DNA of 64,000 nt from Oscillospiraceae bacterium (GTDB lineage Bacteria > Bacillota > Clostridia > Oscillospirales > Ruminococcaceae). This document shows, one piece after another, positions 40,354-46,104 of this stretch. The stretch lies in contig JAHDPQ010000083.1 of the NCBI GenBank assembly GCA_018434245.1, positions 17,698 through 81,697 on the forward strand. Reading direction: 5' to 3'. The position numbers and the translations under genes were made by a program. The notes below the pieces were generated by a model. That model saw only the letters and a list, made by a program, of their open reading frames with translations. It was not told the origin of the DNA and ran no database searches. Each line of letters starts with the position of its first letter. Positions within the stretch are counted from its first letter, which is position 1.

Positions 40354-40611
40354 TTACTTTTTGCGCAGACGCTCATATTTGGTCTTGGTGGCCATTCCGC
40401 CCCGAATATGCCGCTCCGACTTGTTCTGTTCAAGCACTTGCTTGACTTTATCATACAACCCCTCATTAATCGTCTTTAGCCTTTCACTTACGTCTTTATG
40501 TACGGTGGATTTGCTCAAGTTAAATTTCTTGGCTGTTTGCCGAACCGTTGCGTTATGTTCAATAATGTAATTTGCAAACGCAATCACTCTCTCTTCGGGC
40601 AACCCTTTCAA
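40354..40611 (-). CDS. spoIIID: sporulation transcription factor SpoIIID
   Basis: Mother-cell DNA-binding regulator that modulates the sigma-E regulon and switches on sigma-K genes. 85 residues from TTG 40611 (AGGAGGG six bases upstream). The family core is clear: ANYIIEHNATVRQTAKKFNL, SKSTVHKDVSERL (helix-turn-helix) and HIRGGMATKTKYERL at the C-terminus. It has a sigma-E-like promoter. The next gene upstream is a serine recombinase homologue on the same strand, with its own terminator between. Confidence 0.96.
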   Translation of the reverse strand: MKGLPEERVIAFANYIIEHNATVRQTAKKFNLSKSTVHKDVSERLKTINEGLYDKVKQVLEQNKSERHIRGGMATKTKYERLRKK

Positions 40612-40640
40612 AACCAACCCTCCTAACGATGTGCTATTTC

Positions 40641-40874: not shown

Positions 40875-40901
40875 AAAAAGGACCGGTCTCAAGACCGGTC
40901 C
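40875..40901 (-). terminator. terminator of the recombinase-like gene
   Basis: GGACCGGTCT and AGACCGGTCC, followed on the minus strand by TTTTT. Confidence 0.85.
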
Positions 40902-40959: not shown

Positions 40960-42579
40960 TCAGGGCCGCACCGCAAACTGAGCCCCCCCCGAAAAGCGAA
41001 CCAGAAGCTCCTCCCGGTCCCAGGTCACCGAATCGATTAGAGCCCGCAGGGCAGCCCGACGTCGGGGCATGGGAGTGGTTTTGCAGTGGTTGTCCCATTG
41101 GGCCAGAATATCCTGCAAAGCGTCCCGGTAGTGATCCTCCAAAGGGGAAGGGCTGGTCAGGGCCTCCAAAGCCTCTACCTGAGCGGCGAGCTGGGCATTG
41201 CGCTGGTGAAGAGCGTCGATCCGCTGGATGATTTCATCATAAGCGCTCTTGTCAATGGCTTTGATCAGGGTGAACACCAGCTTGGAGATACCCTCCTGAT
41301 TGGCGGCAATCTGCTCCTTCTTTTCGGCGATACGGGCCTGATGAACCTCCAAAGCTTCGGCGGTGGCAGGACGGCGGGGGCGATTGGGCAGAAGGTCCGG
41401 TTCCTCGGGACCTAAGGCACTGAGCATGGCGCTGATGGCATCGTCCACCGTCTGCCCCGAAAGATTGGGGATGTCGCACTCACTGGAGCGGCTTTGCTCT
41501 TTCCGCTCGCAGATGTAAAGGAAACGGGGGACTTCCCCGGGGCGGCCGGCGCGGCGGATCAGCTTAGGCCGCATGTGAGCACCGCAATCCCCGCAAAAAA
41601 GCATCTCGGCCACCAAACCGAACTCGCTTTTGGGCCGCCGTTCGTGGGGAGATTTGTTGCGGGCCAGCTGTTGCTGAACGGAAATCCAGCTGAGAGCATC
41701 AATGATGGGCTGGTGCTCTCCCACCGCCACAATCCATTCCGAAACATCCCGCTGCTGGTTGGCAGTTCCCCGGGCCTGAACGGTTTTGTTGTACACCATC
41801 ATGCCGCGGCTGCCATCAAAGGCCGTTTGAGGGGAGCAGACCTCTGCCCCCAGCCGGGAAAAATAGGTATAGGCGTCGGCATTTGCCTGCATGTAGACAG
41901 GGTTTTCCAAAATCTGGCGCAGGGTGAAGCGGCTGTAGGCCCGCCCATTTTTGGTGCGGATACCTCGATTTTGTAATTCCTGAGTTACCTTGACCAGAGA
42001 GTCCCACTCCAAAAACAGCGAGTAGATGAGCTTGACCGTTTCGGCCTGCTCCGGCATTAATTCCAGGCAGTAGTTCTTTTCCCCCGGTTGCTTTCCCGAT
42101 TTGCGTACCGAGGTGTAGCCGGTGGGGGTAACCCCGCCCAGCCAGCGCCCGCTGCGGGCCAATATCCGCATATTGTCCCGGATATTGGCGGCTGCGCTGG
42201 TCCGCTCCAGTTCCAGAAAGATATCTCCCGCCAATAAAAAACCGCGTCCTAAAGGGGTGGAAAAGTCTATGGCATTGTTGACCAGAATCAGGGTTGCGTC
42301 TTTGCTTTCCAACTGACGGGCCATCTCCAGCAGTTCCCCGGTGCTCTTGCAGATGATTCCGATGTCGGTACAGAGCACGGTGTGGAGCACGCTTCTGTTG
42401 GCTGCCGCCATCAGGGAATCGAGTCCGGGCAAATCTTCGGTAAGACTGCCCTCGTCCTGAAACACAAGGCAGTTTTCCGCAGGATCCCCGAGGTAGAGCC
42501 TGACATATTCCTGACAAAGCTCCAGCTGCTGCTCCTGCTTGTCTCCCCGCAGATAGATGGCCACCGCTTTTTTGATCAA
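40960..42579 (-). CDS. large serine recombinase homologue lacking the catalytic serine
   Basis: 539 residues from TTG 42579 (GGAGG eight bases upstream). The resolvase-like domain starts AVAIYLRGDKQEQQ: Arg11 is kept, but the nucleophilic Ser (YxRxS) is Asp13. The DRLSR motif reads TDIGII (71-76), so two active-site arginines are lost too. ERTSAAANIR (125-134) and GRWLGGVTPTGY survive, followed by a normal recombinase domain. The zinc ribbon Cys329/332/357/368 is intact, then a coiled coil (about 415-500) and a short C-terminal domain. It has no frameshift or stop, so it looks maintained, not decaying. Strand exchange is not expected; DNA binding is. Confidence 0.85.
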   Translation of the reverse strand: MIKKAVAIYLRGDKQEQQLELCQEYVRLYLGDPAENCLVFQDEGSLTEDLPGLDSLMAAANRSVLHTVLCTDIGIICKSTGELLEMARQLESKDATLILVNNAIDFSTPLGRGFLLAGDIFLELERTSAAANIRDNMRILARSGRWLGGVTPTGYTSVRKSGKQPGEKNYCLELMPEQAETVKLIYSLFLEWDSLVKVTQELQNRGIRTKNGRAYSRFTLRQILENPVYMQANADAYTYFSRLGAEVCSPQTAFDGSRGMMVYNKTVQARGTANQQRDVSEWIVAVGEHQPIIDALSWISVQQQLARNKSPHERRPKSEFGLVAEMLFCGDCGAHMRPKLIRRAGRPGEVPRFLYICERKEQSRSSECDIPNLSGQTVDDAISAMLSALGPEEPDLLPNRPRRPATAEALEVHQARIAEKKEQIAANQEGISKLVFTLIKAIDKSAYDEIIQRIDALHQRNAQLAAQVEALEALTSPSPLEDHYRDALQDILAQWDNHCKTTPMPRRRAALRALIDSVTWDREELLVRFSGGAQFAVRP

Positions 42580-43639: not shown

Positions 43640-43684
43640 GGTATAATCGGCCATCGCCGATAGGCGGGCCATTTAAGATAAGCG

Positions 43685-43711
43685 TATAATAGCCGCGTTG
43701 CGGCTATTATA
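43685..43711. repeat. 12-base palindromic element after pheT
   Basis: TATAATAGCCGC-GTT-GCGGCTATTATA, perfect arms, followed by CCATATT as at 24476-24513. It lies nine bases past the pheT stop and may act as its terminator, though no T-run is present. Confidence 0.65.
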
Positions 43712-43719
43712 CCATATTT

Positions 43720-46104
43720 TTACTTCCGCAGGAATACCCCAATTTCCTCCAAAGCTTTGAGGGCCTTCGCTACCGCCTTGTCACACTCTTCATCGGTAAG
43801 GGTGCGATCCTCGGCCCGCAGGGTGAGGGCGTAGGCAAGGCTCTTTTTGCCTTCTCCCAGCCGCTCCGAGCGGTAGACGTCAAAGAGCTGCCAATCGGCC
43901 AGTAGCTTACCCATGGCCTTTTTCATGGTGGTGGTGATTTGGGCGTTGCTCACCTCTTCGTCACAAACCAGAGCCAGGTCCCGGGTGGAGACTGGAAAGC
44001 GGGGCAGGGGCTGATAAACAGGGGAGCCACCGGTCTTTTCCAGAAGAGCCGCCAGATCGATGTGGGCAAGGTACAGGGGAACATCCACCTTGTAGTTGTC
44101 CGCTACGGCAGGATGCACCTGCCCGATGAGGCCCAGAGTCACATCTCCAGCCTGCAGACGGGCGCAGCGTCCCGGATGGAAGAGGGGGTCGTCCTTCACC
44201 GGATGGGCCTCCCAATCGGACACCCTCGCCTGTTCCAGCAGTGCCTCCACCGTGCCCTTGAGGGTGAAGAAGTCCTCCTCCGGGCCGTAGAGGCCGATGA
44301 CGATTTTCTGCAGCTCGTTGGGGAGCTTACCTTCTTCGGTGGGAAGGTATTCCGTAGCCAGCTCGTACAGCCGGGCGCTTTCGCTTCTGGCCCGGTAGTT
44401 TCTGGCCAGAGCGTCCAGCATGGAGGGCAGAGCGGTGGTCCGCATGACCCCGGTGTCTTCTCCCAGAGGGTTGAGGATAACCACCGAACGGCGCAGAGGG
44501 GAATCCTGGGGCAGTAGAATCTGATCGTAGCTCTTGGGGGAGATAAAGGAGTAGGTGATGATTTCGTTGAGACCCTGAGCCAGCAGAGCCTGATGAATGC
44601 CCCGCACAAAGCGCTGCTCCTCGGTGGGGCGGGCCTTAACTTCCCCGTGAATAATGGTGGAGGGGATGTTGTCGTACCCCCAGAAGCGGGCAACCTCCTC
44701 CGCCAGATCGTACTGGCAGGTGACATCCCGCCGCCAGCTGGGGGCGGTCACCAAATCCCCTTCGATCGTAAAGCCCAGAGCCTCCAGCCAGTCTTCCATC
44801 TTCTCCCGGAGAATCTCCACCCCCAGAAATTTGCTGATCCACGCATCATCCAGCTTTTGGGTGACGGGAGCCTGCTTGGGAGCGGAAATGTCGACGATGC
44901 CGTCCACCACTTCTCCTGCCCCCAGCAGCTCCACCAGCTCACAGGCCCGCTTAAGGGCGGGGATGCAGTTTTCCGGGTCCTGCCCCTTTTCAAAGCGGGA
45001 GGAGCTTTCGGTCCGCAGTCCCAGCTGCTTGGAGGTGGTTCTCACCGATGGCCCGAAGAAGCAGGCAGATTCAAAGACTACGGTTTGGGTGGTTTCATAA
45101 ACGCCGGAAAACTCGCCACCCATTACTCCCGCCACGGCGGAAGGGGCGCTTTCGTCGGCGATGACCAGCATCTCGGGGGCAAGGGTGCGCTCCACCCCGT
45201 CCAAAGTGGTGATCTTTTCACCGGGGGTGGCGTTGCGGACCACAATCTGGTTACCCTTGACGTGAACCAGATCAAAGGCGTGCATGGGCTGGCCGTATTC
45301 CAGCATCACATAGTTGGTGATGTCCACCATGTTGTTGATGGGGCGAACGCCACAGGCCCGCAGACGCTCCCGCATCCAGCGGGGGGAGGGGCCGATCTTT
45401 ACATTCTTGACTACGGCGGCGGAGTAGCGCAGGCACAGCTCCTGATTTTCCACCCGCACCTTGAGGTAATCGTCGATGCTGCCCCCCGAGCCCTTGACCA
45501 CCGGCTCATGGAGCTTTAGGGGGACATTGTAGGTGACGGCGGCTTCCCGGGCCAGCCCTCGGATCGAGAGGCAGTCGGGACGGTTAGGGGTGATTTCAAA
45601 CTCCACCATGGTGTCGTTGAGGCCGATGACTTCCAGGGCATCCTGGCCCAGCTTTTCCACAGGGCAGTCCTCTCCCAGTAGGAAGATACCGTCCTCTCTG
45701 GCATAGGGAAAGTCCCCGTGGGTCAAGCCCAGCTCCTCCAAAGAGCCCAACATACCCTCGCTAACCTCGCCCCGCAGCTTACCCTTTTTGATCTTCTGGC
45801 CCTCGGCGGTGACCGAGCCATCGGTAAAGACGGGGACGTAGGCGCCGGGCACTACGTTGTCTGCTCCGGTAACAATTTGCAGAGGCTTTTCTCTCCCCAC
45901 GTCAATTTGGCAGATATATAGGGAATTAGCATTGGGGTGCTTAATTACTTCCAGCACCTTACCTACCACCACGCCGGAAACGGGGCCACCCTCTATTTCG
46001 TAGCCCTCCACCTTGGAGCCGCTCATGGTCATGTCGGCGGCAAACTGTTTGATGGGTACATTGAGATCCACATAATCTGAAAGCCATTTCATGCTGAGAT
46101 TCAT
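43720..46104 (-). CDS. pheT: phenylalanyl-tRNA synthetase beta subunit
   Basis: 794 residues, normal length for the long bacterial form. MNLSMKWLSDYVDLNVPI opens it. The tRNA-binding (EMAP-like) domain is at about 40-150 (VVVGKVLEVIKHPNANSLYI). The B3/B4 editing domain follows (MLEYGQPMHAFDL, LVIADESAPSAVAGVMGGE), then B5 and the catalytic-like core. The C-terminal FDX-ACB anticodon-binding domain is at about 700-794 (PRFPVSTRDLALVCDEEV). It works as an alpha2-beta2 enzyme with PheS, the gene 84 bases upstream, under a T-box. Confidence 0.97.
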   Translation of the reverse strand: MNLSMKWLSDYVDLNVPIKQFAADMTMSGSKVEGYEIEGGPVSGVVVGKVLEVIKHPNANSLYICQIDVGREKPLQIVTGADNVVPGAYVPVFTDGSVTAEGQKIKKGKLRGEVSEGMLGSLEELGLTHGDFPYAREDGIFLLGEDCPVEKLGQDALEVIGLNDTMVEFEITPNRPDCLSIRGLAREAAVTYNVPLKLHEPVVKGSGGSIDDYLKVRVENQELCLRYSAAVVKNVKIGPSPRWMRERLRACGVRPINNMVDITNYVMLEYGQPMHAFDLVHVKGNQIVVRNATPGEKITTLDGVERTLAPEMLVIADESAPSAVAGVMGGEFSGVYETTQTVVFESACFFGPSVRTTSKQLGLRTESSSRFEKGQDPENCIPALKRACELVELLGAGEVVDGIVDISAPKQAPVTQKLDDAWISKFLGVEILREKMEDWLEALGFTIEGDLVTAPSWRRDVTCQYDLAEEVARFWGYDNIPSTIIHGEVKARPTEEQRFVRGIHQALLAQGLNEIITYSFISPKSYDQILLPQDSPLRRSVVILNPLGEDTGVMRTTALPSMLDALARNYRARSESARLYELATEYLPTEEGKLPNELQKIVIGLYGPEEDFFTLKGTVEALLEQARVSDWEAHPVKDDPLFHPGRCARLQAGDVTLGLIGQVHPAVADNYKVDVPLYLAHIDLAALLEKTGGSPVYQPLPRFPVSTRDLALVCDEEVSNAQITTTMKKAMGKLLADWQLFDVYRSERLGEGKKSLAYALTLRAEDRTLTDEECDKAVAKALKALEEIGVFLRK

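Follow-up and report, generated by a model that had tools for sequence, protein, structure and literature searches.

Two active recombinases tied to sigK are among the closest described systems. CD1231, the recombinase of the skin element of C. difficile (SkinCd), keeps its nucleophilic Ser10, both excises and integrates skin, and is inactive as an S10A variant; it is expressed constitutively from a sigma-A promoter and is followed immediately by the 3' half of sigK, according to its published description (PMC5025042). The same paper describes SpoIVCA, the recombinase encoded by the skin element of B. subtilis, as active, controlled by sigma-E and SpoIIID, and acting at a different insertion site (PMC5025042).

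A mobile-element enzyme kept by its host is exemplified by PiggyMac, a domesticated transposase which, as described, still excises DNA. Domesticated transposases are well known. By contrast, the literature matches listed included none that describes a large serine recombinase which is catalytically dead and yet retained by selection, and a literature search for sigK skin elements in Ruminococcaceae returned nothing on point. The best relative with a solved structure is the YokA resolvase homologue (PDB 9dxh), which we take to be an active, phage-derived integrase; its similarity to the protein described below resides in the recombinase domain (E 1.7e-8) and is weak overall.

Here we describe a gene in a window of 64,000 nucleotides (the whole stretch of DNA analysed) whose product resembles these enzymes but seems to have lost the ability to cut DNA. 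Like PiggyMac it appears to be a mobile-element enzyme retained by its host; unlike PiggyMac it is a serine recombinase without catalysis. It has the domain order of CD1231, going by the description of the latter, and the layout of CD1231 upstream of the 3' sigK half is also that of its closest active relatives found here (PMC5025042). The sigma-A promoter of CD1231 likewise resembles the one proposed below for two copies of the gene (PMC5025042), but unlike CD1231 the gene lacks the Ser codon and is located away from sigK. With SpoIVCA the likeness, as described, is that of a serine recombinase tied to sigK (PMC5025042).

An open frame with the domains of a large serine recombinase

The frame at 40960-42579 on the minus strand encodes 539 amino acids, starts with TTG shortly 3' of a GGAGGAGG-type ribosome-binding site and contains zero internal stops (6 occur in the plus-strand translation of the same interval), in agreement with a previous sequence-only reading, which had seen neither stops nor frameshifts. 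Resolvase, Recombinase and Zn_ribbon_recom domains follow each other in the order typical of large serine recombinases, and all exceed the Pfam cut-offs. The same reading had called the recombinase domain and four zinc-ribbon cysteines intact; this holds, the four Cys being invariant in a 53-row alignment, and the C-terminal region, for which that reading proposed an intact coiled coil, can be aligned with relatives along its full length. The gene and its surroundings are organized as follows.

40960..42579, minus strand: homologue of large serine recombinases, apparently catalytically dead, 539 aa, TTG start
42139..42579, minus strand: degenerate resolvase (catalytic) domain, residues 1-147 (Pfam Resolvase 6-146)
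42544..42549, minus strand: R11-G12 junction, place of the 7-residue deletion that removed the nucleophilic Ser, from the alignment
42346..42369, minus strand: TDIGIICK (residues 71-78) replacing the YRLDRISR motif, from the alignment
41656..42054, minus strand: Recombinase (DNA-binding) domain, residues 176-308 (PF07508), strongly constrained
41422..41607, minus strand: zinc-ribbon domain, residues 325-386 (PF13408), four invariant Cys
40880..40901, minus strand: intrinsic terminator between the gene and spoIIID, 9-bp stem then TTTTT
40354..40617, minus strand: spoIIID, downstream neighbour on the same strand (PF12116 and TIGR02844 over cut-off)
43720..46104, minus strand: pheT, upstream neighbour, named by eye, homologues found

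Loss of the catalytic residues

Five carriers of this gene, referred to below as the dead gene, were found among 11 genomes searched of a single genus, i.e. the window genome (G000), G004, G006, G007 and G010, all of them draft assemblies, and the frame is open in all five copies. Relative to the window protein, identity is 80% in G006, 57% in G007 and 56% in G010; the G004 copy is 94% identical across 345 aa, but its N-terminus is missing at a contig edge, so that its catalytic domain is unreadable.

In the four full-length copies the nucleophilic Ser is absent. That Ser was missing had already been recognized in the sequence-only reading, but its view that Asp13 had taken the place of Ser did not stand. 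Alignment with active relatives reveals a 7-residue deletion, in which R-KSKFTGK-G became R11-G12 with the Ser inside the lost stretch, and Asp13 therefore comes after the gap and is no substitute. The residue at this position is D, E, G or V across the four copies. Since four genomes that were assembled separately share the deletion, at identities of 80-56%, it does not represent chance or an assembly error. The replacement of the arginine-bearing motif was described correctly: TDIGIICK occupies the position of YRLDRISR in the relatives, with Ile75 and Lys78 in place of the two motif Arg. The first of these Arg is missing in 4/4 full-length copies (Val in G007 and G010), whereas the second has become Lys in the window and in G006 but is retained as Arg in G007 and G010. 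From the LERExxAER stretch, the E-R pair has likewise disappeared.

Ser and both Arg are kept, however, in all 71 close relatives read outside the dead group, which comprise 58 from a family search, four from GTDB contigs and nine from an order-wide search. The family search covered 396 genomes, 61 of them with matches at E <= 1e-60; every match not belonging to the dead group (59) was read, and the 58 with a readable N-terminus all retain the three residues. The order-wide search covered 394 genomes, with nine matches read; ten further matches, as well as remote recombinases weaker than E 1e-75, stand outside the count. A Ser-bearing homologue in near-identical strains was not found in these searches, and a recent mutation is ruled out by a lesion common to copies at only 56% identity. 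A virus-borne gene was addressed by screening viral contigs for two short peptide patterns, which yielded only one remote relative (21%).

Continued catalysis with another nucleophile, e.g. the residue following the deletion, would be compatible with the open frame and with the second motif Arg in G007 and G010, and with nothing more. Given the variable residue 13 and the loss of both the E-R pair and the leading Arg of the motif, we regard this as next to impossible.

Purifying selection and domain-wise conservation

Between the G000 and G006 copies, omega (NG86) is 0.09 for the whole gene (95% bootstrap 0.065-0.125), 0.17 for the catalytic domain (0.087-0.283) and 0.07 for the recombinase and zinc domains (0.040-0.116), values which are rough because dS exceeds 1. 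The G000-G004 pair, with a dS of 0.4, gives a safer estimate of 0.082 (0.046-0.131), which covers the C-terminal 345 aa and not the catalytic domain. Neighbouring genes fall in a similar range, with 0.07 for marR and 0.085 for an ABC gene (both named by eye) in the G000-G004 comparison, and 0.13 for pheT and 0.04 for spoIIID in G000-G006. A dN/dS near 1, which, in a clade lacking synteny, the sequence-only reading had named as speaking against its proposal, was thus found neither overall nor in the catalytic domain.

The distribution of conserved positions differs between domains. Among active relatives it is the catalytic domain that is best kept (mean identity 63% vs 47% for the recombinase domain), but between dead and active proteins the order is reversed, with 31% identity in the catalytic and 41% in the recombinase domain. 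Of the columns with at least 94% conservation across 49 active rows, all four dead rows retain 19/48 in the catalytic domain, as opposed to 22/26 in the recombinase domain, 9/10 in the zinc ribbon and 3/5 in the C-terminus; the difference between the catalytic domain and the recombinase plus zinc domains (31/36) is significant (Fisher p 1.6e-5).

A decaying relic that has yet to gain a stop codon could be suspected from the long branch leading to the dead group (see below) and from the loss of most catalytic-domain positions. Decay to a pseudogene is rejected, however, by the omega of 0.09 and the open frames in 5/5 copies, and the dead state is older than the divergence to 56%, so that we consider a relic highly improbable. 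The designation as a catalytically dead, apparently domesticated recombinase is upheld by the absence of Ser and first Arg in 4/4 copies together with this low omega.

Relationship to recombinases of sigK elements

A tblastn search with SigK of G006 showed that nearly every close active relative adjoins one half of SigK, usually the 3' half, which starts at residue ~110 and follows immediately after the recombinase gene. This applies to 36 of the 37 active matches that came closest in the family search (E <= 1e-100; in G297 the SigK half is based on a weak match cut by the contig end), to 9/9 order-wide loci read and to 5/22 weaker matches within the stretch read. Some of the SigK halves are only 34-43% identical, and the other half of sigK was seen in few cases only (e.g. 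G020, G015, G008 and L089). That SigE had been mistaken for SigK was checked at 53 loci, of which 52 matched; SigK scored above SigE wherever both matched, with narrow margins in a few loci such as L080, and L128 has a separate SigG gene as well. In substance the earlier pointer to SpoIVCA was right, as recombinases of sigK (skin-type) elements come closest among the active relatives. The dead gene itself has no SigK half in the loci read in any of the five genomes and is not located in a sigK-splitting element.

In a 64-row tree, the dead proteins form one clade (100/100), nested in a 40-row clade that contains 35 sigK rows (support 88/76, not starred). The stem branch of the dead proteins is long (1.47-1.49). 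Placing the dead group outside all 31 active rows of a 42-row tree is not rejected by the AU test (p 0.29), which allows both descent from the sigK recombinases and a sister relationship. In an rpoB tree of eight genomes (midpoint root), carriers G000, G007 and G010 group with the non-carrier G009 (100/98); no rpoB was obtained from G006 or G002, and a fragment from G004 was left out.

Genomic neighbourhood and putative promoters

The dead gene is flanked by pheT and spoIIID, in this order, in G000 and G006, and in G004, where the contig starts inside the dead gene, spoIIID also follows. It is located elsewhere in G007 and G010, in the latter after an rpoN-like gene (named by eye). The sequence-only reading had thus identified the neighbour spoIIID correctly, but the link is conserved in only three of the five carriers, and the association is weak as an intrinsic terminator (40901-40880) separates the two genes. 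A similar hairpin precedes spoIIID in G004 (by eye). Joint transcription as an operon is disfavoured by the terminator-like hairpin and by the missing neighbour in 2/5 genomes. G009 lacks the dead gene, spoIIID and SigK and has spoIVA, a co-absence that is only suggestive because it concerns one genome of 94% completeness.

Upstream of the dead gene, exact TTGACA/TATAAT pairs are found in G007 (spacing 18) and G010 (spacing 16); there is only a poor match to a sigma-70-type promoter in G006 and none within 320 bases in G000. Inspection by eye for promoters of sporulation sigma factors gave nothing claimable, and a conserved upstream motif as an autoregulatory site was discarded, as G000 and G006 share little beyond the ribosome-binding region.

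Several further observations concern neighbouring or sporulation genes. A perfect 13-bp inverted repeat with a 3-base loop lies directly after pheT (43684-43712) and is terminator-like on both strands. The pheT genes of G010 (L172) and G009 (L171) are of a different type, being 41-42% identical to that of the window vs ~89-90% for rpoB. In G010, spoIVA looks split, with profile positions 1-401 and 390-492 ~16 kb apart on the same strand of contig 37 (L191) and the second part inside a frame of 628 codons whose first portion reads as a serine recombinase; a break at about this position, spread over contigs 18 and 77 (L192, L193), is also seen in spoIVA of G001. A literature search combining 'intervening element' and spoIVA gave no match with both terms in title or abstract.

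sigK and its codon-109 site

In carriers G006 and G010, sigK is uninterrupted, and in G000 and G007 it is broken at codons ~136 and ~66, respectively, each time beside a different recombinase. The codon-109 site is thus empty in 4/4 readable carriers. In the five readable non-carriers of the genus, it is filled in four (G002, G003, G005 and G008; only the 5' half, with no recombinase beside it, was seen in G005, and only the 3' half in G003) and empty in G001, a difference with a Fisher p of 0.048 among related genomes. Carrier G004, with SigE fragments only, and G009, in which no SigK was found and the best match was SigE, were dropped from this count.

As an observation in its own right, sigK is interrupted at three places within one genus (codons ~66, ~109 and ~136), and the serine recombinases beside the breaks differ where one was seen; interrupted loci are C7/C150 of G000, C21 of G007 and C21/C48 of G001, with others in G002, G003, G005 and G008. 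On C1 of G008 (L050, L051) and C312 of G002 (L161), the codon-109 recombinase adjoins the 5' sigK half and is encoded on the opposite strand, instead of lying upstream of the 3' half.

The empty site may be read as occlusion or immunity at sigK, with the dead protein binding the codon-109 attB and excluding SkinCd-type elements, or slowing sigK transcription in replacement of the lost element. Along with the pattern of occupancy, it fits this idea that the sigK genes of carriers have taken up other elements, though at codons ~66 and ~136. Moreover, among the columns that distinguish 33 sigK rows from 17 sister-group rows, the dead group has the sigK state in 11/16 of the recombinase domain. 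In the zinc ribbon, however, this holds for only 1/6 columns (catalytic domain 1/5, C-terminus 1/2). Of the sister-group rows, 16 have no sigK half that was seen and one, L010 of G008, is located at sigK; the comparison leaves out L090, L127, L133, L138, L139, L146 and L148. The carriers are also related, so that the four empty sites are not independent evidence; shared descent can explain the empty site and could account for part of the retained sigK-state columns. The site DNA is also not conserved between carriers: within sigK codons 100-120, 9/19 same-residue codons differ between G000 and G006 vs 28/106 elsewhere in codons 1-136, i.e. the region is if anything less conserved (p 0.099), and G000 has synonymous changes within the core of the site. 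The synonymous-change test thus spoke against a conserved sigK target, and with G004 and G009 outside the scoring, occlusion at sigK seems to us unlikely, if still worth serious thought.

A dead subunit could alternatively act as a dominant-negative partner, an active recombinase elsewhere having been considered as its partner in the sequence-only reading too, which in mixed complexes, or by titrating a directionality factor, tunes excision of a resident element. The remaining constraint on the catalytic domain (omega 0.17) and the C-terminal region would be in line with this, as would the presence of other recombinase elements in sigK of G000 and G007. Yet the recombinases of these elements are only distantly related (E 7e-8 and 3e-4), sigK of G006 and G010 is uninterrupted, and no constant partner gene emerges from the stretches read, as the dead gene occupies at least three different neighbourhoods; we find this option distinctly doubtful.

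Discussion

Overall, sequence comparison shows catalytic loss, purifying selection, retained binding domains and a location away from sigK. With the cutting site lost and the DNA-binding half under strong selection, a mobile-element enzyme has seemingly been turned into a DNA-binder, and we consider it likely that the dead gene encodes a domesticated, non-recombining DNA-binding protein that either derives from the recombinases of SkinCd-type sigK elements or is their sister.

Mechanistically, such a protein may still bind an att-like site as a dimer, using its recombinase and zinc-ribbon domains. Because the dimer could not cut, it is proposed to act through site occupancy, which would block either a recombinase or transcription. 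In at least two species the gene might be driven by a vegetative promoter, like the recombinase of the C. difficile skin element, although this step is the more tentative one. As for the target, the retained sigK-type residues give a hint of the old sigK site, against which the diverged site DNA speaks. A role of the dead protein in sporulation may be suspected.

One conceivable function is immunity against skin elements, in which a cutting-deficient protein seated on the old insertion site, or poisoning incoming recombinases, would guard sigK against re-invasion; we judge this rather improbable. If sigK or skin recombinases are indeed the target, however, the dead protein would represent a response of the host to elements that time and again disrupt a key gene of sporulation. 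More generally, it is a natural candidate for a recombinase-derived protein that binds DNA without strand exchange.
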